Shown: positions 1-29,923 of the stretch, one piece after another | Layout of the letters: each line of letters starts with the position of its first letter | Position numbering within the stretch: the stretch's first letter is position 1 | Origin: Salinadaptatus halalkaliphilus | Lineage (GTDB): Archaea > Halobacteriota > Halobacteria > Halobacteriales > Natrialbaceae | Length of the DNA stretch: 64,000 nucleotides | Assembly (NCBI RefSeq): GCF_006543045.1 | Contig: NZ_RBZW01000016.1 | Coordinates: 1 to 64,000, forward strand | Reading direction: 5' to 3' | Notes under the pieces: model-generated | What the model saw: the letters and a program-made list of their open reading frames with translations, nothing else | Database searches by the model: none | Told to the model about the DNA's origin: nothing | Made by a program: the position numbers and the translations under genes

Positions 1-164
1 TACTGCATCTTCTGAGGTCGAAAAGCCGTCTCTAACGCCGTGAAATTGTAGATCAGCAACCCCACCCCGATGCCGTCTTGCGTTCAACAAGGCATCAGAG
101 GATGTATACAGCAAAGTGTCATCTACAAATGTTCGGGTATTATCGACTCTCTCAGCGATCGTGG

Positions 165-416
165 TTATGTACTGTGAGATTTGACCGAGATATATCCATC
201 AGAAAAAACACTCACCTCGCAGCCACTATACTTGAAAATAACCTTCCCAAGTGTTCGGTCGTTGGCGAACAAGCTCTCCAAGGCGTCGGGGTCAATTACT
301 TCATAGAGTGGGGGAGTTAGTTCGAGAGGGTCAACATCTTCTACTTCGGCCACTGATTTAATTACTTCATTGATTACATTATCGACGGACGCTGTTGCGG
401 TCTGTGTTTGAACCAT
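165..416 (-). CDS. HalOD1 output-domain protein (copy 1)
   Basis: An 83-residue acidic protein that is essentially one HalOD1 (halobacterial output domain 1) fold. That domain is otherwise found at the ends of haloarchaeal sensory proteins, and its biochemical role is unknown. Visible marks are ELTPPLYEVIDPDALESLF around residues 32-50 and a C-terminal EVSVFSDGYISV strand. The paralogue at 1704-1976 shares these motifs. It lies 79 bp downstream of the AsnC/Lrp gene 496-984 on the same strand, exactly the spacing in the second copy, so the two are probably co-transcribed. The start is the first ATG and fits the paralogue. Base composition is clearly more AT-rich than the chromosome right of 3 kb. 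Family assignment is fairly secure; function is not. Confidence 0.8.
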   Translation of the reverse strand: MVQTQTATASVDNVINEVIKSVAEVEDVDPLELTPPLYEVIDPDALESLFANDRTLGKVIFKYSGCEVSVFSDGYISVKSHST

Positions 417-495
417 TGACCACTATAGTCCCTCGCCCTTCTTGAACCTATTGGTCATTTGATATTATCCGGGGCGACTTAACAAGGGCTGGAAA

Positions 496-984
496 TTAGC
501 CAGTGTCCCCCTCATTCGCAAACTCCTCCCCGAAGTGGTTGTACGGGTTTGTTTGTTCCTGTTTCATCATCTCCATCCGCTCAATATCGACGCCGAGTGA
601 GTCCAGCGTTTCAAGGGTCTCCTCAATGTCCTCCGGCGTGCGGCCCACTACTTCCAGTGACAGGTTCTCGTTGTTTGTTAATAGCTCTCGGATGCTTAAG
701 ATACCGGATACCTCCATCAAGTCGTCCACCATCTTCTCTCGGTCTTGGAGAGCGACTGTCGCGGTGACGAGGAGGTGATGACCTAACCCCGTTTCACTGT
801 ACTTGATGATTGGATGATAATCGATAATGACGCCACGCTCCTCAAGACTGTTGATTCGATTAGCGACCGTACTGGACGAAACACCGACTTTCTCAGCCAT
901 GTCCTCGGTCGTGTTACGTCGGGCGTCCTTCTGGAGTAGATACAGTATCCCTTTATCCACGTTGTCGATTTCCTCGGAGACCAT
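496..984 (-). CDS. Lrp/AsnC-family transcriptional regulator (copy 1)
   Basis: A 162-residue Lrp/AsnC regulator. The N-terminal winged helix (residues about 5-58) begins VDKGILYLLQKDARRNTTE and has a recognition helix VSSSTVANRI. The C-terminal half (about 65-140) is the RAM-type ligand-sensing and oligomerising domain. Such proteins bind DNA as dimers or octamers and usually respond to amino acids; the ligand here cannot be read. It is paired with the HalOD1 gene 165-416. The whole pair recurs at 1976-2544 with the same protein length and spacing. The ATG at 984 gives the family-typical N-terminus. About 240 bp with no gene separate it from the response regulator upstream. Confidence 0.93.
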   Translation of the reverse strand: MVSEEIDNVDKGILYLLQKDARRNTTEDMAEKVGVSSSTVANRINSLEERGVIIDYHPIIKYSETGLGHHLLVTATVALQDREKMVDDLMEVSGILSIRELLTNNENLSLEVVGRTPEDIEETLETLDSLGVDIERMEMMKQEQTNPYNHFGEEFANEGDTG

Positions 985-1228
985 CGCTACACTGTAGAAG
1001 TCGCAACGGGAAGTGACTTTTCTCAGTAGTCATATTTAGAGAATATATCTATCGACTAAACACGCCAAGTCAAACAGGCTGAATTTGGAGGAGACGCCGT
1101 GTGAGATTCACTGTGCGTATCTCGCAACAACAATCGGAACACCCTTATGAACTAGTAGAATTTTCGACGGTCAGTAAGCACACGTAATTGCCGCTCAGCA
1201 CAGGTCTGACATCCGCAAAAGGTGAAAA

Positions 1229-1687
1229 TCATGTCGGAATCGGTGGGAGCCGTGCCTGCTCAAGCCAAAACTCCTCAAAAACATCTACAAGAGACATGAA
1301 CTCGACAGGATCTGTTGGTTTGGTCAGATAGGCGTTAGCGCGGGCATCATAGCACCGCGCAGCATCCTCGTCAGCTTCCGAACTCGTGAGCATAAGCACA
1401 GGAAGTGGTTTGAGCCGGGAATCATCCCGAATCACTTCAAGGACCTCGCAACCATCCCGACCGGGCAGGTTCAAATCCAGCAGGATGAGATCGGGAAGCT
1501 CGTTATCTGAAGACCCCTGTAAGAACTCCACAGCGTCGTCACCATTAGTGACTGTCTGTAGTGCTATCTCTTGTTCGGCTGACTTGAATGCCTCCCGAGT
1601 GAGCCGAATGTCACCGGGGTTATCTTCGACAAGCAAAATGTCGATCCCATCGTTGCCTGAGGACTGGTGAGCAGGAGTGTCATGCAT
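1229..1687 (-). CDS. Stand-alone response regulator (REC domain)
   Basis: A 152-residue receiver-only response regulator without an output domain. The acidic pair is E21/D22 in LLVEDNPGD, the phospho-acceptor is D71 in LILLDLNLPG, the Thr/Ser switch is in LMLTSSEAD, and the Lys is in YLTKPTDP. The arrangement resembles the Rcp1/CheY-like single-domain group common in haloarchaea. The reading frame stays open 41 codons further upstream, but the ATG at 1687 starts 16 bp after the HalOD1 stop (1704) and gives a compact receiver, so I chose it. It probably forms one transcript with HalOD1 copy 2 and perhaps AsnC copy 2. No histidine kinase is in the window, so the partner is unknown. Confidence 0.9.
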   Translation of the reverse strand: MHDTPAHQSSGNDGIDILLVEDNPGDIRLTREAFKSAEQEIALQTVTNGDDAVEFLQGSSDNELPDLILLDLNLPGRDGCEVLEVIRDDSRLKPLPVLMLTSSEADEDAARCYDARANAYLTKPTDPVEFMSLVDVFEEFWLEQARLPPIPT

Positions 1688-1703
1688 GGTAGATCGCCGA
1701 GGA

Positions 1704-1976
1704 TTACCCCTTGATGCGCCCGTGACCGTGATACTGCTTCTCGACGGCCACATACCCGTCAGAGAACACGCTGATCTCGCAATCGTTATAGTTGAATATA
1801 ACTTTCCCAACGGTCAGGGAATCGTCAAAAAGGCGGTCTAAGGCCTCGGGATCAATGGCATCGTACAATGGGGGTGTGAGTTCTACAGGGCGCACACCTT
1901 CTGCTTCAGCAACTGCTTCCACCACAGTCTGACTAACACGCTTCTCCTCGGGGATTTCGGTCTCGACTTTGTTCAC
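1704..1976 (-). CDS. HalOD1 output-domain protein (copy 2)
   Basis: A 90-residue HalOD1-domain protein and paralogue of 165-416. It shares ELTPPLYDAIDPEALDRLF and the EISVFSDGYVAV strand, but has a different basic C-terminal tail (HGHGRIKG) and a different N-terminal extension. It sits between AsnC copy 2 (79 bp upstream) and the response regulator (16 bp downstream), so it may link receiver phosphorylation to transcription. That link is inference. A single HalOD1 domain has no known catalytic residues. Confidence 0.8.
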   Translation of the reverse strand: MNKVETEIPEEKRVSQTVVEAVAEAEGVRPVELTPPLYDAIDPEALDRLFDDSLTVGKVIFNYNDCEISVFSDGYVAVEKQYHGHGRIKG

Positions 1977-2055
1977 ATCCCCTGTAGACCAGCCACATCC
2001 TTAAACTTATAGCTTGATTGATGCTTTCCAGAGAGGCTTAAATAGGGTCTGGAAA

Positions 2056-2544
2056 TCAGCCAGTATCGTCCTCGTTCGTAAATTCCTTTCCGAAGTGATT
2101 GTAGGGGAACGCTCGAATCCGCTTCAACAAATCTATGCGCTCGATATCGACGCCCAACTCGCCCATCTCACCGATACTCTTCTCAATTTCTTGCTTGTTC
2201 TGCCCGACCAACTCAATCGAAAGGTTGGCGTTATTCGTTAACAGTTCACTGACACTCACCACACCAGGGACGCTTACGAGATCGTCAACAATCTCCTCTT
2301 GGTCATCAATTGGAATCGTCGCCATGACGAGCAAGTGATGGCCCATCCCCGTTTGCTCGTAGTCAACTGTTGGGTGATATCCCGTGATAACGCCGTCCTC
2401 TTCGAGCTTGGTGATGCGATTGGCGACTGTGCTGGACGAGACGCCGACCTGTTCCCCGATGGCGTTCGTCGTGTTATTCCTGGCATCTTCCTGCAAGAGA
2501 TACAGGATGCCTTTGTCAACCGCGTCAAGTTCCTCCGAAGCCAT
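2056..2544 (-). CDS. Lrp/AsnC-family transcriptional regulator (copy 2)
   Basis: A 162-residue Lrp/AsnC regulator, colinear with copy 1 at 496-984 over its full length. The winged helix starts VDKGILYLLQEDARNNTTN and the recognition region VSSSTVANRITKLEEDGVI is nearly identical. The C-terminal RAM-type sensing domain has diverged more, suggesting similar DNA sites but a different effector (inference). Start and stop lie exactly 1560 bp from those of copy 1. The non-coding DNA upstream of the two genes is not alike, so the duplication ends near the start codons and the promoters are independent. Confidence 0.93.
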   Translation of the reverse strand: MASEELDAVDKGILYLLQEDARNNTTNAIGEQVGVSSSTVANRITKLEEDGVITGYHPTVDYEQTGMGHHLLVMATIPIDDQEEIVDDLVSVPGVVSVSELLTNNANLSIELVGQNKQEIEKSIGEMGELGVDIERIDLLKRIRAFPYNHFGKEFTNEDDTG

Positions 2545-2611
2545 GGTCGGGCCGTAATGGAACCGTCAATAAAGTAGGTCCCCTTGATTTGTCCAGTACA
2601 GGCCGAGTAGT

Positions 2612-2806
2612 CTACATATCTACGTCTTCGAGAACAGACCCATCGTTGCTGAGAATACGAAGATTGCCATCCCCACATGTACAAGTTTCGTCTCGTCCAT
2701 TGCCAATGGGCCGTATTTCTCCGTCAGGCCCGAGACGCACCGCATGGGCACTCCCACAGTTTTCACAGACTGCTGCTGCCCGCTGTCTCTCACCTTCCCC
2801 CGCCAT
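2612..2806 (-). CDS. Small zinc-binding protein, unknown function
   Basis: A 64-residue protein with two metal-binding knuckles, CENCG near residue 14 and CTCG near residue 42, consistent with a single zinc ribbon. Small zinc proteins are abundant in haloarchaea and are often conserved without known function. An AT-rich stretch (GATAAAAGTTAAC on the minus strand, about 2840-2850) lies some 35 bp upstream of the ATG and may be the promoter. It is upstream of and co-directional with AsnC copy 2 (67-bp gap). I do not recognise a family. Confidence 0.6.
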   Translation of the reverse strand: MAGEGERQRAAAVCENCGSAHAVRLGPDGEIRPIGNGRDETCTCGDGNLRILSNDGSVLEDVDM

Positions 2807-3080
2807 TTCTCTGCTTCTTGTATGATGTACGAGTTAACTTTTATCCATAGGGAAAGAGAGATTGTCCCCCTCTGATCAGTACGCACACGTAGTTATCGAA
2901 TCATTCAGTTTTATTCCGGTTTCTGAATAAAGAACCGTACTACTATCTACTGCTAACTCGAGTGACGGGCACCCAACTCGCGTGCGGAAGGAGCGACTGA
3001 CGCCGACGGCCGACCGTTCGAACAGTCGGCCGCTCGAGCAGGTCGAAAGGAACGTCCCCACGGCCCGCAAAACGGCCAGT
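2807..3080. other. Intergenic boundary between AT-rich block and GC-rich chromosome
   Basis: No gene is supported here. Up to about 2950 the DNA is AT-rich, with the putative minus-strand promoter of the small zinc gene and an imperfect inverted repeat of TTCAGTTTTATTC against GAATAAAGAAC. After about 2960 composition switches abruptly to the GC-rich pattern of the rest of the window. This is the visible right edge of the accessory block. Confidence 0.5.
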
Positions 3081-3629
3081 ATGATCGCGATTTTCTCCGA
3101 TACGCACAGTACGAACGGCCACGAACTCGAGGGCGAGGCGCTGGCCGCCGTCCGCGAGGCCGACGTCGTCGTCCACGCGGGCGATTTCACCAGCGAGGCG
3201 GCGCTCGAGGCCTTTCAGCAGGAGGCGAACCAGCTCTTGGCGGTCCACGGCAACGCCGACAGCGCAGCCGTTCGGGATCGGTTACCCGAAGCACGCGTCG
3301 TCGAAGCGGGCGGTATCCGGTTTGCCGTCACTCACCGTCGCGACGGCGGCGAAATGGGGTTGGCGATGTTCGGGCGCTCGAGAGACGCCGACATCGTCGT
3401 CTCGGGCCACACTCACCGGCCGACCGTGATCGAGAGCGAGGACTGCCTGCTGCTCAACCCCGGCAGCCACGCCGATCCGCGCGGGAATCGCCCGGGGTTC
3501 GCCGTCCTCGAAGAGCCAGAGCCGGGCGAGTCGGGAGACGCCCACGGGAAGCGAGACGGCCGACTCGAGGGCGAGATACGCGAGCCAAGCGGCACGCTCG
3601 TGGAGTCGTTTTCGGTCGAATCGAACTGA
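3081..3629 (+). CDS. YfcE/MJ0936-family metallophosphoesterase
   Basis: A 182-residue cytoplasmic calcineurin-like phosphodiesterase. Metal-binding motifs appear in family order: IFSDTHS (D7, H9), VVHAGDFTS, AVHGNADS (the GNxD block), SGHTHRP and LLNPGSH. MJ0936/YfcE enzymes hydrolyse model phosphodiesters; the natural substrate is generally unknown. The frame is open back to 2982, but only the ATG at 3081 starts at the first beta strand (MIAIFSD), as in the family. The C-terminus carries about 30 extra acidic residues, typical of halophiles. It appears monocistronic. Confidence 0.92.
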   Translation: MIAIFSDTHSTNGHELEGEALAAVREADVVVHAGDFTSEAALEAFQQEANQLLAVHGNADSAAVRDRLPEARVVEAGGIRFAVTHRRDGGEMGLAMFGRSRDADIVVSGHTHRPTVIESEDCLLLNPGSHADPRGNRPGFAVLEEPEPGESGDAHGKRDGRLEGEIREPSGTLVESFSVESN

Positions 3630-4012
3630 GAAGTACCGTTCGCTCGGCGACTCGCCAGCGAGCGCGTCAGCGGGGTGGTGGAAGGCGCCGCGGGCGAATG
3701 GAGGGGGCCGCGGGCGAATGGAGGGGCTCGGGTGGACCGGCCTGGAGGGCTCGAGTGAACCGGCCAAGTGCACGATCGTGGTGGGACGATCGCAGCGGGG
3801 GGACCGCGGCCGGCGCGGAGGGCCACGCGAGCGGGGAGCCGCTGTGCGAGACGCAGTTGTACCTACGGGCGTTCATATAATAGAGTCAACGGAAGGTAAA
3901 AGCCCGATTTTAGCTATCCGAATCGCCCGCCGACATCGACCACGCTCACCACCGCGAGCGCGGCCAACAGACGTCGAAACGGTTTTGCACACCGACACAG
4001 TACCGATCTGGT
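3630..4012. other. Gene-free 383-bp region with G-rich tandem repeat
   Basis: No convincing coding sequence. At about 3686-3725 a 20-bp unit (GGGCCGCGGGCGAATGGAGG and a near copy) occurs twice in tandem on a G-rich strand. Further right, AT-rich stretches (CATATAATAG near 3875, GGTTTTGC near 3981) could be promoter elements. The second is about 30 bp before the small gene at 4013. I see no RNase P or SRP RNA consensus. Confidence 0.4.
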
Positions 4013-4147
4013 ATGCTCGATCTCATCCCCGACGATCCCGTCATCATCGCGATCGTCCTCATCTTGCTCTCGCTGATCTTCTTCTCCTATCTCCTGCTTC
4101 GCCGGACGATTCTCGAGTTCCGCGACGGCATGCGCGGCGATCGGTAA
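4013..4147 (+). CDS. Small single-span membrane protein
   Basis: A 44-residue protein. Its short acidic N-terminus (MLDLIPDDP) is followed by one strong transmembrane helix (residues about 9-30, VIIAIVLILLSLIFFSYLLL) and a basic stop-transfer RR, then a charged tail ending RGDR. Purely hydrophobic codon use followed by a charged tail is unlikely by chance in this GC-rich DNA. A TATA-like GGTTTTGC lies about 30 bp upstream, compatible with a leaderless message. Function unknown. Confidence 0.65.
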   Translation: MLDLIPDDPVIIAIVLILLSLIFFSYLLLRRTILEFRDGMRGDR

Positions 4148-4190
4148 GGCGATCCGTTGGGCGACGCTGATCGGTGGATGACGGCGATCA

Positions 4191-5213
4191 TCAGCCAGCA
4201 AGCGCCGTCTCGATCCGCTCGAGGGCAGTCTCGATATCCCCACGCTCGAGGTCTCGATGCGTACAACAGCGGACCGTCCGCGAGTCGATCGCGCCGGTGT
4301 TGACATCGGCCGCTTCGAGCCGATCGACGACGGCCTCGGCCTCGAGGCCCGTCCCCGTGACGTCGACACAGACGATGTTGGTCTCGGGTTCCTGAACCTC
4401 GAGGCCGTCGATATCGGACAGTCCGTCGGCGAGCAGCCGAGCGTGGTCGTGATCCGTCGCGAGGTCGTCGACGTTCTCGAGGGCGCGGCGTCCGGGACCG
4501 GCGAGGATACCGACCTGTCGCATTCCGCCGCCGAAGAGTTTGCGCACGCGACGGGCCCGCTCGACGAACTCCTCGCTGCCGGCGAGCATCGAGCCGACCG
4601 GCGCGCCGAGGCCCTTCGAGAGACAGCACATGACCGAATCGACGTGGTCGGTAATGGCGGTGACGGGAACGTCGAGCGCGACGGCCGCGTTGAACACGCG
4701 AGCGCCGTCGAGGTGGACCGGGACATCGCGGTTGCGAGCCGCCTCGGCCGCCGCTTCGATCTGCTCGGGTGCGATCGCGATCCCGCCCTTCGCGTTGTGG
4801 GTGTTCTCGAGACACAGCAGGCCGGTTCCCGGCCGGTGAAGGTCTTCCTCGACGTATTCCGTGCTGATTTGGTCGGGCGTGGGAACTCCGCGGTCGCCGC
4901 CGTCGAGCATCCGCACCTGCAGACTCGAGTGCTGGGCGAAGCCGGCGAGTTCGTACCGAACGACGTGGCTCTCGCGCTCGGCCAGCACCTCCTGGCCGGG
5001 GTCGGTGTGGACGTGAGCGGCGATCTGGTTGCCCATCGTTCCGGTCGGGACGAACACTGCGGCTTCTTTTCCAACGGCGTCTGCGCCGCGGCGCTCGAGG
5101 TCGTTCACGGTCGGATCCTCGCCATAGACGTCGTCGCCGACCGCGGCGGTACGGGCCGCTTCGCGCATCCGCTCGTCGGGTTTCGTAACGGTGTCGGAAC
5201 GCAGATCGATCAT
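4191..5213 (-). CDS. Low-specificity L-threonine aldolase (PLP-dependent)
   Basis: A 340-residue fold-type I PLP enzyme of the beta-eliminating lyase/threonine aldolase family. It cleaves L-threonine or allo-threonine to glycine and acetaldehyde. It opens with the family signature MIDLRSDTVTKP, has the GNQIAAH segment, and carries the PLP lysine in CLSKGLGAPVGS. The frame extends 18 codons upstream of the chosen ATG at 5213, but the signature begins there. It is convergent with the small membrane gene and divergent from the methyltransferase at 5348. Confidence 0.93.
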   Translation of the reverse strand: MIDLRSDTVTKPDERMREAARTAAVGDDVYGEDPTVNDLERRGADAVGKEAAVFVPTGTMGNQIAAHVHTDPGQEVLAERESHVVRYELAGFAQHSSLQVRMLDGGDRGVPTPDQISTEYVEEDLHRPGTGLLCLENTHNAKGGIAIAPEQIEAAAEAARNRDVPVHLDGARVFNAAVALDVPVTAITDHVDSVMCCLSKGLGAPVGSMLAGSEEFVERARRVRKLFGGGMRQVGILAGPGRRALENVDDLATDHDHARLLADGLSDIDGLEVQEPETNIVCVDVTGTGLEAEAVVDRLEAADVNTGAIDSRTVRCCTHRDLERGDIETALERIETALAG

Positions 5214-5347
5214 GTCCGCTGTACTGGCGCAATCAGCAAATAGCCGGCGACCGTCGTCGACGGCCACCGCACCGCTACCGAAATCTGACTTAAACGGCCG
5301 ATATGCTTCGTGCCAACCTACTCTCTCGTTGCGGCACGAATCACGAT

Positions 5348-6088
5348 ATGGTCATGGAACCTACGGAGACGACCGCAGCGTCGGACTCGAGCGACAAGTC
5401 GCCCGGCGACGACGCGTACGCAGCCCATCTCGAGCGAAGCCGACGGGTGTGGGATCGCTGGAGCGACTGGTACGGCCTGAGCGAGTCCGATTTCGAGCCG
5501 ATACGCGAGCGAGCGATCGACCGGCTGGCTCTCGAGTCGGGCGACCGCGTCCTCGATATCGGCTGCGGACCGGGGGTAAACTTTGCGTACGTCCGCGAGA
5601 AAATCGGGTCGGCGGGACACCTCGTCGCCGTCGACTACAGCCCCGAGATGGTCGCCAAGGCCAGAGCTCGCGTCGACGACCACGGTTGGGACAACGTCGA
5701 GGTTCGTCGCGCCGACGCAACGACGGTCGCGTTCGACGAGCGATTCGACGCCGCAATCGCAACCCTCTCGCTGAGCGTGATGCCCGACGTAGACAGCACA
5801 CTCGAGACCGTTCGTCGGCACGTAGCGCCCGGCAGTCCCGTCGCCGTGGTCGACGTCAGGCCCGCGCCGAGTGGTCCGGCGAGGCTCCTGAACCCCCTTA
5901 TCTGGCGGTTCTTTCGGTGGTACGCGAACTGGAACCCCGAGCAAAACGTCCTCGCGTCGCTGCGGGCCGTCTTCGACGAGTGCGAGGTCGTCGAGACGAA
6001 CCTGGCTGGCGTCTCGTATACGGCGATCTGTCGAACGGCCGATTCGCGGGAGACGCGACCGTCCGGGCCGCGGGATCCAAACCGGTGA
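5348..6088 (+). CDS. Class I SAM-dependent methyltransferase
   Basis: About 246 residues, Rossmann-fold methyltransferase. SAM motif I is VLDIGCGPGVNFAYV, followed by LVAVDYSPEMV (acidic loop) and RRADATTVAFDERFD (motif II/III region). The C-terminal part contains ARLLNPLIWRFFRWY, a hydrophobic patch also seen in haloarchaeal small-molecule or quinone/lipid-type methyltransferases, so a membrane-near substrate is possible. The open frame begins at 5303. I prefer 5348, with 5354 also possible. Substrate cannot be assigned. Confidence 0.82.
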   Translation: MVMEPTETTAASDSSDKSPGDDAYAAHLERSRRVWDRWSDWYGLSESDFEPIRERAIDRLALESGDRVLDIGCGPGVNFAYVREKIGSAGHLVAVDYSPEMVAKARARVDDHGWDNVEVRRADATTVAFDERFDAAIATLSLSVMPDVDSTLETVRRHVAPGSPVAVVDVRPAPSGPARLLNPLIWRFFRWYANWNPEQNVLASLRAVFDECEVVETNLAGVSYTAICRTADSRETRPSGPRDPNR

Positions 6089-26245: not shown

Positions 26246-29200
26246 TCACATGAAGTCCTCGATACCGGACTGTTTGTTTTTGTCATTTTCGAAAATGCTC
26301 TCGAGGGACTTCTCGAGCACTTCCAACCGCTGTTTCGTGTAATCCCGGCAGTCGTACTCCTCGGCGACCTGGATCGCGGTCTGCATGTACTTGTTGACCG
26401 AGCCTTTGTGGACGGTGAGATTGACGCGGCCACCGCATTCGCGGCAGTCGCCGGTCAGTGGCATCCGCCGAAACTTCTCGCCGCAGTCGAGACAGCGGGT
26501 TTCCTGCCGGGAGAACGCGCGCAGATTGCCGATCAGGTCCGGCAGGAAGTGATACTCGATGACTCGCTCGGCGACGTCGGTCTCGTCGACTGCCTCGAGT
26601 TTGCGCGAGAGCTCGAGTTGGGCGTCCATCTTGTCCATCATCGAGCCCAGCGTCTTGTACGCCGAGAGGTCGGGGCCCATCGCGATGTTGGTGGTGTCGT
26701 GGGTGTGTTCGAACCCGGTGTACTCGCCGTCGGTACCCAGCGTGTCCTCGCCGATCTGGATGTCGACGGATTCGGGATCGGCCTGCTCTCGAGTCGCGAG
26801 GTAGAACTCGCGGGGGTACTGGCTAACGATGTCCATGTTGTGGGCCTCGTCGTCGATCTCGGCGGGATCGATCCGAGAGGACATGACCAGGGGCGCGTCC
26901 ATCTTCCCGCCCCTCTGATCTGGCAAGAAACTGGTACTAAAGTTCAATAGCCCGTCCATGAGGAGCATCACACAATCTTCGTCACCGTCACAATTCCGGC
27001 GCTTTGCGGCGTGAAAGTACGGATGAGCATATCCGACTGCCGCACTCGTGAAACCAATTACTCTCCCGACAGTTGCCGCACTCGTGTGGGGTGCCATCCC
27101 GAAGACCAGCTCGCCGACCAGTTCGTCCCGATCCTCGAGTTCATAAAATGGCTCGAGGCCGTAGTACTGCTCGAGCAAGTCGTCAATGAAGGCGGCGGTC
27201 TGGAGCATGTGCTCGGCAGCGCCATCCGAGAGGACGATGTCCTGGACCTTCAGCTCCACGAGTTGATCCTCGTGGGTCAGGGGCTCGCCGTGGATGTCTT
27301 CCTCGTAGCCGAGCGCCTGCAGTTGGCCGACGTCGACGTCGAGCTCGCTCGCCCGGACCGATGTCACGGGGAGATCGGTCATGTCGTAACGAACGGTCCC
27401 GTCTTTGAACGCCGAGACGTCGTGTTTCGCCCGTAGAACCCCCTTCTCGATGGGCTCGGGGATCTTGTTCGCCGAGGTCAGTCCCTTCACACCTTTCAGG
27501 ATCTCGAAGGCGTTTTCGCGTTCGCCGACGGACTCGAGCGCGCCGCGAAACTCCTCGTTGATGTCGATCTCTCGGGGTTCGACGCAGGTGGCCTCGACCT
27601 CGCAGTGGTCGCACTCGACGCGGCCGGCCTCGTCGGGTTCGATCTGCTGGTCGCAGTCGGGACACCGGTAATCCGGCGTCGTCCGGTCGTTGCAGTCGGG
27701 ACAACGGTTCTTGAACGTCTCCGTGCCACAGGACTCACAGCGCTGGCGGCCGATCTGGAGTTCGACGACCCCCGGCGTGTCGGACATCGTCTCGGCGTAG
27801 GAGGCCGCATCCGAGACGTTGCGCTGGGCACCACCGGCTTCGCCGATCGGAAAGAGGGTGTGGACCGGCGGGCTCAGATCCCGCCGTTCCGACTTTTCGG
27901 GGCGACCCATTCGGTTCCCGACCCGGGTCGGTGCCCGTTCGCGAACCGTGAAGGGAGCGACCTCGTCGACCGCTTCCATAGCGTTTGCACCGGGCTCATC
28001 GTTGCCCCACGTCCAGGCACGCTCCGAGAGGTCGTCGTCGTGCCAGGTGCGCTCGAGAGCGATCGCCGGCTCCCCATCGCCGTCGGCTGGATCGAGAGCG
28101 GCACCGTCGGTGACGGCCTGGCGCGGCTCACACCCGAGGGTGGCGGCTAGCGGTCGCCAGGTGTCGATCTCGAGGCGGCCGTCGTCCTCGCGCTGGCGGT
28201 GTTCGATGACGATCGTCTCGAGGGCGTCGCGGACGGCGTCGGCGTACTCGAGGACGAGCGTACCGCTGTCGTCCGTTTCGCCGACGAATTCGGCCTCGAC
28301 GTGGCCGTCGGTGATCGTTGCACCCTCGACGTGGCCGTCGGCGACGGCGTCCGCGAGGGTACAGAAGGCGTCGACCGAGAGGTCGTGCCAGAGGTAGGTG
28401 TACTCCGGATGGAGCGGCGCGTCGTACTCACGAGCCCACTCGAGGGCCTCGTCTGGGTCGGGAAACTCGAGGTCGATGCGTGGGTCGTCCTCGAGTGCCT
28501 GGGTGTCCGCGCCGGCGGCTGCGAGGTCCTGAATCCACCACTCGTAGGTGTAGGAGGCCGGCGCGAGCGGATGGTTGTTCTCGATGAACTCGCCGTAGTT
28601 GACCAGATACTCCCCCAGATCGAGGATCTCCTCGACGCCGTTTCTGACCTCGAGGGCGTCGTCGGGGTCGTCGATCCGGCGCACGTCGCCGTTGGCCAGC
28701 TTGACGGTCGGCCCCTCGATGGAGTCGACGGGGACGACGCCGGCGGCCTTGCCGGGGCGTTCGGTCTTGATCTGGGTGCCCGTCGCAAGGAAGTCGTCGA
28801 CTAGGTGCATCGCGGCGGGGTGAACGCCGGCGGTCGCGAACCCGTGGTTGCGCGCTCGACCGTATCGCAACCGGAACCCGCCCGTCGCACAGGGGTGAGA
28901 GAAGACGGGGCGGCCGGCGATCAGGTCCCGGAGGAACTTCTCGGAGGTGTCGACGCGGGGCGGCCCATCGGGTTCGTCGGCTGCGTCCCCATCGTCGTTC
29001 GGCTCGTCGTCGGCGTCCTCGCCGTCTGGGTCGTCGTCGGCGTCCTCGTCGGCGCTGTCAGCGGCGGTCTCGTCCTCGCTCCCGCCGTAGTTGCCGTCGA
29101 TCAGATCCTGCAGCCACGGCCAGTCGATCTCCTCGAGGTTGCGGGTGTACCGTTGAATCTTGGGCGCCTTGAGCGCGATCCCTTCGCCCAGGACCAGACA

Positions 29201-29923
29201 CATTCCGCCGCGGGCGCTGTTGGTGTCGACGCGCTCGAGATCGCGAAAGCCCGAGACCTCCTCGTCGCCGGTGGCTTCCCCGTCTAACATGATCGGGAGG
29301 TTCTTAGCGATGAACTTCGCCTCCTTTGCCTTGGGCGTGTACTGGAGGCCGGTCTCCTTGTCGTAGAGGGCGATCTCCTCGGCGTAGCGTTCCACTTCGT
29401 CGCTTCGGGCGTCGTACTGGTCGATACCGACGAGTGCGCGAGTGTAGTCGGCGACGAGTACCGACAGCGCCTGTGCGGTCCCGCCGGCCGACCGGATCGG
29501 CCCGGCGTAGTAGACGTTGACGAACTCGGTGCCGTCGTCGTTCTCTAAGATTTCGACCCTGTCGATTCCCTCGATCGGCGCGGCGACGACGCCCTCGGTC
29601 AGCAGGGCGACGGCGGTCCTGACGGCGCCCTCGACCTTGCCGGCTTTCGTCTCGTAGTCGCCGACCCGTCCCTCGGCGAAGTCCGCCGCGAGCTCGAGGG
29701 CGGCTTCTTCGCGGCTCATCTCGCCCTCGAGTTCGCGGACCCGTTCGGCGACGCCGTCGATGCCGAGGATGTTCTCGACGCGGTCGGCCATGTCCTTGGC
29801 GACCGGAATCTCGACCTCGGGCTCGGGGTCGCCGCCGCGTTCCTTGGCGGTCTCGGCGACGTCGAAGGCCGCGTCTAACTGGGACTCGAGGCGCTCGAAG
29901 TAGCGTTCGTCTGCCTCGCGCAT
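26246..29923 (-). CDS. polC: DNA polymerase D (Pol II) large subunit, DP2
   Basis: A 1225-residue catalytic subunit of PolD, the euryarchaeal replicative polymerase; it works with the small exonuclease subunit DP1, which is not in this window. Typical parts are the N-terminal IPVAKDMADRVENILG, the central RYGRARNHGFATAGVHPA, the zinc clusters CESCG/CPDCN/CPDCD/CDHC (~690-745), the catalytic-core NCDGDED (~977-983) and a C-terminal CLDCGEKFRRMPLTGDCRECGG. There is an acidic insert of about 45 residues (~280-325). No intein is present, but about 190 bp around the Asn977-Cys978 intein site (26905-27095) uses AT-rich codons such as AGA, AGG, ATT and CTA, unlike the rest. Confidence 0.97.
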   Translation of the reverse strand: MREADERYFERLESQLDAAFDVAETAKERGGDPEPEVEIPVAKDMADRVENILGIDGVAERVRELEGEMSREEAALELAADFAEGRVGDYETKAGKVEGAVRTAVALLTEGVVAAPIEGIDRVEILENDDGTEFVNVYYAGPIRSAGGTAQALSVLVADYTRALVGIDQYDARSDEVERYAEEIALYDKETGLQYTPKAKEAKFIAKNLPIMLDGEATGDEEVSGFRDLERVDTNSARGGMCLVLGEGIALKAPKIQRYTRNLEEIDWPWLQDLIDGNYGGSEDETAADSADEDADDDPDGEDADDEPNDDGDAADEPDGPPRVDTSEKFLRDLIAGRPVFSHPCATGGFRLRYGRARNHGFATAGVHPAAMHLVDDFLATGTQIKTERPGKAAGVVPVDSIEGPTVKLANGDVRRIDDPDDALEVRNGVEEILDLGEYLVNYGEFIENNHPLAPASYTYEWWIQDLAAAGADTQALEDDPRIDLEFPDPDEALEWAREYDAPLHPEYTYLWHDLSVDAFCTLADAVADGHVEGATITDGHVEAEFVGETDDSGTLVLEYADAVRDALETIVIEHRQREDDGRLEIDTWRPLAATLGCEPRQAVTDGAALDPADGDGEPAIALERTWHDDDLSERAWTWGNDEPGANAMEAVDEVAPFTVRERAPTRVGNRMGRPEKSERRDLSPPVHTLFPIGEAGGAQRNVSDAASYAETMSDTPGVVELQIGRQRCESCGTETFKNRCPDCNDRTTPDYRCPDCDQQIEPDEAGRVECDHCEVEATCVEPREIDINEEFRGALESVGERENAFEILKGVKGLTSANKIPEPIEKGVLRAKHDVSAFKDGTVRYDMTDLPVTSVRASELDVDVGQLQALGYEEDIHGEPLTHEDQLVELKVQDIVLSDGAAEHMLQTAAFIDDLLEQYYGLEPFYELEDRDELVGELVFGMAPHTSAATVGRVIGFTSAAVGYAHPYFHAAKRRNCDGDEDCVMLLMDGLLNFSTSFLPDQRGGKMDAPLVMSSRIDPAEIDDEAHNMDIVSQYPREFYLATREQADPESVDIQIGEDTLGTDGEYTGFEHTHDTTNIAMGPDLSAYKTLGSMMDKMDAQLELSRKLEAVDETDVAERVIEYHFLPDLIGNLRAFSRQETRCLDCGEKFRRMPLTGDCRECGGRVNLTVHKGSVNKYMQTAIQVAEEYDCRDYTKQRLEVLEKSLESIFENDKNKQSGIEDFM

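Follow-up and report, generated by a model that had tools for sequence, protein, structure and literature searches.

What do the unusual codons within a DNA polymerase gene of Salinadaptatus halalkaliphilus record? The polC gene, encoding the PolD large subunit (DP2), lies on the minus strand at 26246..29923 of the window, i.e. the whole stretch of 64,000 nucleotides that was analysed. As originally predicted, it is a continuous open reading frame of 1225 amino acids with no intein, and the C-terminal catalytic part of its product matches the solved PolD DP2 chains 6hms_B, 6t8h_B and 5ijl_A. A patch of low-GC, rare codons inside it had been ascribed to a co-conversion scar, left in this lineage by an intein that invaded the gene and was then precisely lost. 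The patch itself is real: GC3 is 0.84 over the whole of polC, as against 0.47 for codons 948–977 and 0.63 for codons 978–1007. In this genome a segment scan delimits a low-GC3, rare-codon segment at 26906..27151 on the minus strand (codons 925–1002/1006), whose maximal score is reached by 0 of 20000 permutations (p<1/5000 to p<1/20000). Taken as codons 925–1004, the same segment covers 26912..27151. No comparable block is found in the other genes among the 46 of the window; polC has one significant block, and its GC3 drop over 60 codons (–0.31) is followed by one of –0.18 in the next gene.

The patch falls on a known type of intein insertion site. The Asn977–Cys978 junction in RRN/CDGDED is located exactly where the original prediction had put it, between 26993 and 26992 on the minus strand (site a, 26992..26993). 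This is a conserved junction with Cys at the +1 position, as befits an empty pol-IIa site, and relatives carry inserts there. For comparison, 120 polC alleles were sampled from the same family, which was taken to be Natrialbaceae on the basis of named relatives; 47 of them have an insert exactly at 977/978 (about 49 of 122 by matches), and the tract does lie on the homing site as predicted. A second empty site (site b, codons 1007/1008, GGK/MDAP, 26902..26903 on the minus strand) is filled in 12 of the 120, in each case together with site a. The 47 site-a inserts comprise 26 of endonuclease size (493–508 amino acids), nine of mini size (178–213 amino acids) in alleles filled at site a alone, and 12 mini-size inserts accompanied by the second insert at 1007/1008, mostly of 517 amino acids. 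In haloarchaea, two intein alleles of this PolD subunit have been named pol-IIa and pol-IIb (Soucy et al., 2014, PMC4071816); sites a and b presumably correspond to them, b being assigned by its position. The site-a inteins begin with CFHP, and their last residue directly before C978 (L132–L178) is Gln in place of the usual Asn. Several genera are represented among the two-intein alleles (L150, L154, L155, L159, L165, L166, L168, L171 and L173), which have one common type of inter-site segment.

Around site a, the segment in this genome is lopsided, extending about 53 codons to the N side of the junction and about 27 codons to the C side. The near-symmetry that had been proposed thus does not hold for this genome, although it does for the family average, where the dip covers codons 948–1007, 30 codons on either side of site a, with sharp edges. 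Throughout the family, this core tract (26903..27082, minus strand) combines low GC3 with a third-base composition like that of inteins and with high divergence at synonymous sites. In nearly all of the 120 family alleles, whether intein-bearing or empty, GC3 is low over codons 948–1007 and is back up at codon 1008. In ten-codon bins of the tract it is 0.54–0.72 in the 72 other intein-free alleles, as against about 0.9 just downstream, and 0.52–0.77 in the 26 alleles whose intein is of endonuclease size. The dip is small or one-sided in a minority, such as L193, L200, L201 and several mini-intein alleles. Since nearly all alleles of the family have the dip with or without an intein, and intein-free relatives show it both on average and in nearly all individual cases, a recent scar specific to this lineage is unsupported; a codon pattern shared by intein-free relatives is what the original prediction had itself named as its refutation. 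The empty site, the intein-like composition of its flanks and the accepted occurrence of intein transfer and loss in Halobacteria (PMC4071816) would all suit a scar, in which this lineage had gained a donor tract together with the intein and then lost the latter precisely. With the same type of tract in nearly all relatives, however, this account is very improbable, and nothing shows such a gain and loss here: the open reading frame contains no intein remnant and is unbroken across the 977/978 junction.

The tract is probably a lasting footprint of a hot spot for intein homing, formed by recurrent, homing-linked replacement of extein flanks across the class rather than by a single event. Inteins bearing a homing endonuclease (HEN) would move around within Halobacteria, using site a as well as site b, which lies 30 codons further downstream. 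Cleavage of an empty site, presumably the driving event, would be followed by repair from another allele, which may copy the extein DNA around the sites and above all the segment between a and b. Repeated exchange would keep a stretch of about 60 codons different from the remainder of polC: diverse, swapped between species and sharing the relaxed third-base composition found in mobile inteins. An allele that is empty at present, such as that of this genome, might have acquired the same kind of tract either through past invasion and loss or by conversion from other empty alleles.

In its third-base composition the tract matches endonuclease-bearing inteins, even in empty alleles, and departs from the remainder of polC. 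At fourfold sites the frequencies of A/C/G/T are.15/.35/.33/.17 in HEN inteins,.17/.32/.36/.16 in the polC flanks of HEN alleles and.17/.29/.35/.18 in the flanks of intein-free alleles, while the rest of polC has.05/.62/.28/.05. The non-host codon composition asserted in the original prediction is confirmed. The N flank is ameliorated in alleles with a mini-intein at a single site (p=0.0007). It stays low in two-intein alleles although their site-a intein is also mini, which counts against a homing hot spot. The edges of the dip count against it as well, as they are fixed at 947/948 and 1007/1008 and bound a plateau in the family average, instead of a decay with distance from the cut. The downstream edge coincides with site b. 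A hidden third intein site at 947/948 was considered as the cause of the upstream edge and rejected, as no intein is found there in 391 Halobacteria. The sole split match in that search (G371) looks like a frameshift: near codon 945 (L396 and L397; contig C1, near 2197690) the polC frame of genome G371 is apparently shifted, whether through misassembly or through a genuine frameshift.

Close pairs of relatives were taken as those with about 10% synonymous difference outside the tract. Their synonymous divergence within it is 3.75 times that elsewhere in polC when one allele is empty and the other occupied (five pairs) and 2.9 times when both are empty (four pairs), the pair sets being small; control windows give 0.5–1.3 times in the same comparison. 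One close pair reaches 48% synonymous difference in the tract against 9% elsewhere. In larger pair sets (26, 22 and 10) the tract exceeds the rest about twofold in all classes, most of all in the intein-discordant class, where the 26 pairs of relatives differing in the intein show a localized divergence (0.30–0.44 in the tract versus 0.16). The excess between close empty–empty pairs would also be expected if recurrent cuts at empty sites were mended in an error-prone manner, so that synonymous changes and a relaxed composition arise without donor DNA. Such mutagenic repair is one of the two explanations given for the diversity near mobile introns (Repar and Warnecke, 2017, PMC5378118). It accounts less well, however, for a composition equal to that of inteins, and one close empty–empty pair is patchy, with 10/30 differences upstream of the site and 1/28 downstream. 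Cytosine deamination in resected DNA strands, with which mutagenic repair would be expected to leave a strand asymmetry, was rejected as a cause, as the tract has no T-upstream/A-downstream asymmetry.

The genealogy of the tract bears on the same choice. The two-intein state requires 1–2 changes on trees of windows covering codons 978–1007 and 10–11 on other segments, and the two-intein alleles form one group, with a single change, on the tree of codons 948–1007. This single change is explained less well by mutagenic repair, which on the whole is unlikely. Most of this signal stems from the stretch between sites a and b. When the two-intein alleles are left out, the intein state requires 21–24 changes at the site windows and mostly 26–30 elsewhere; the 21 changes for codons 963–992 are fewer than in any of 200 shuffles, the lowest of which gave 23, although many of these tests use related, non-independent sequences and their p-values serve as guides only. 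For site a alone, the association between tract type and intein state is weak (Fst about 0.04 at codons 968–987), which speaks against a homing hot spot. Thus, the tract genealogy follows the element and not the species for the two-intein state, and does so more weakly for site a alone. Together with the local excess divergence, it bears out the earlier proposal that flanking extein is swapped along with inteins among relatives.

In the allele of this genome itself, the tract is nearest to those of intein-free alleles of other genera, at synonymous distances of 0.22–0.31, whereas the intein-bearing alleles that neighbour it in the rest of polC are at 0.42–0.62 in the tract. Empty and occupied alleles are mixed among its nearest relatives in the rest of polC. 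Each of the ten tracts closest to it comes from an intein-free allele, which is contrary both to a lineage-specific scar and to the intein-bearing donor that had been assumed for it.

The inteins might merely be co-located with codons that are constrained for other reasons, e.g. suboptimal codons at the PolD active site kept for folding or as an RNA or DNA signal. The presence of the dip irrespective of intein state, its fixed edges and several tract positions with position-specific AT-ending codons are in line with such a constraint. Against it, no dip is seen at the homologous codons of 18 GC-rich archaeal polC genes from outside Halobacteria, retrieved as intein-free (residual +0.04, 92nd percentile), despite high conservation of the PolD protein at this place. 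Within the other Halobacteria the dip is weaker and more variable (mean 0.70 for the N flank and 0.72 for the C flank), and some, e.g. L075 and L078, lack it. An extra DNA- or RNA-level constraint is also rejected by synonymous conservation: observed/expected synonymous identity by position is ordinary in the tract and no higher than elsewhere, and divergence there is higher, not lower. Intrinsic constraint on the tract codons is already disfavoured and appears improbable.

Other genes were scanned in 30-codon windows with an amino-acid-corrected codon residual, using circular shifts over nine intein sites. The lowest internal codon windows are at intein sites in polC, MCM, PolB and RNR (circular-shift p=2.5e-4). 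Those of MCM are 320–349 and 389–418 (intein sites 336/337 and 402/403), those of PolB are 633–662 and 602–631 with the 5' end set aside (615/616 and 664/665), and that of RNR is 417–446 (440/441). The footprint thus recurs in three genes besides polC, and a general link between such dips and inteins is supported. Protein conservation was rejected as the cause of the dips, its correlation with the codon residual being r=0.08. Two cases are adverse to a homing hot spot: the polB-c intein site (525/526) has no dip, and GyrB (L341–L370) has a short, strong low-GC3 patch near the 5' end, at codons 31–36 (STDSRG after MYIG), where no intein is found in Natrialbaceae. The GyrB patch is in favour of intrinsic constraint in this respect. 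The second RNR paralog was to serve as a control; the NPCGE motif was looked for there and not found. In MCM of this genome (L272, contig C27, bases 1–6000), site 402/403 (ELDKMR/SEDRSA) contains a 181-amino-acid insert of mini-intein size, whereas five other relatives with only this site filled carry 642 amino acids.

In haloarchaeal replication genes, the host DNA at and between neighbouring intein sites might even consist of interchangeable cassettes, each having a composition and a genealogy of its own. They would amount to a trans-species polymorphism that a selfish element drives, with the endonuclease keeping them diverse across species also in empty alleles. This extension is tentative. 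Its cleanest example would be intein-free PolB (L242–L271), where a low-GC3 stretch (codons 616–663) lies exactly between 615/616 and 664/665 and ends sharply at the second site. If the homing hot spot is true, inteins leave a legible trace in every gene that they have visited, even where they are now absent, and codon usage by itself could suffice to map past invasion. A local anomaly in codons at an intein site would then no longer be taken for a recent gene transfer, and the reach of homing into flanking DNA in archaea would have a natural measure in how far the tracts of close relatives diverge.

Related observations have been published. In haloarchaeal MCM, extein codons adjoining an intein sometimes move with it (PNAS Nexus, 2023, PMC10643990), although these are single junction residues, unlike the tracts of about 60 codons described here, which are present also in empty alleles. 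As for pol-IIa and pol-IIb, the finding that empty, mini and endonuclease-bearing alleles occur side by side, with loss and regain, agrees with Soucy et al. (2014, PMC4071816), whose study deals with the inteins themselves; a term search of it finds nothing on extein flanks. A limited search of the open-licence literature found no earlier report of 60-codon intein-like tracts in empty alleles; within that search the intein version with such tracts appears unreported, while its principle is known from mobile mitochondrial introns, in which exonic co-conversion and diversity gradients in adjoining exons have been described (Repar and Warnecke, 2017, PMC5378118). In both systems, the host gene is most diverse where the homing element inserts, without a one-to-one match to the presence or absence of the element. 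The present case differs from that of the introns in that it concerns inteins in archaeal replication genes, that it involves a shift in codon composition, and that it takes the form of a sharp-edged plateau rather than a gradient and recurs in several genes.
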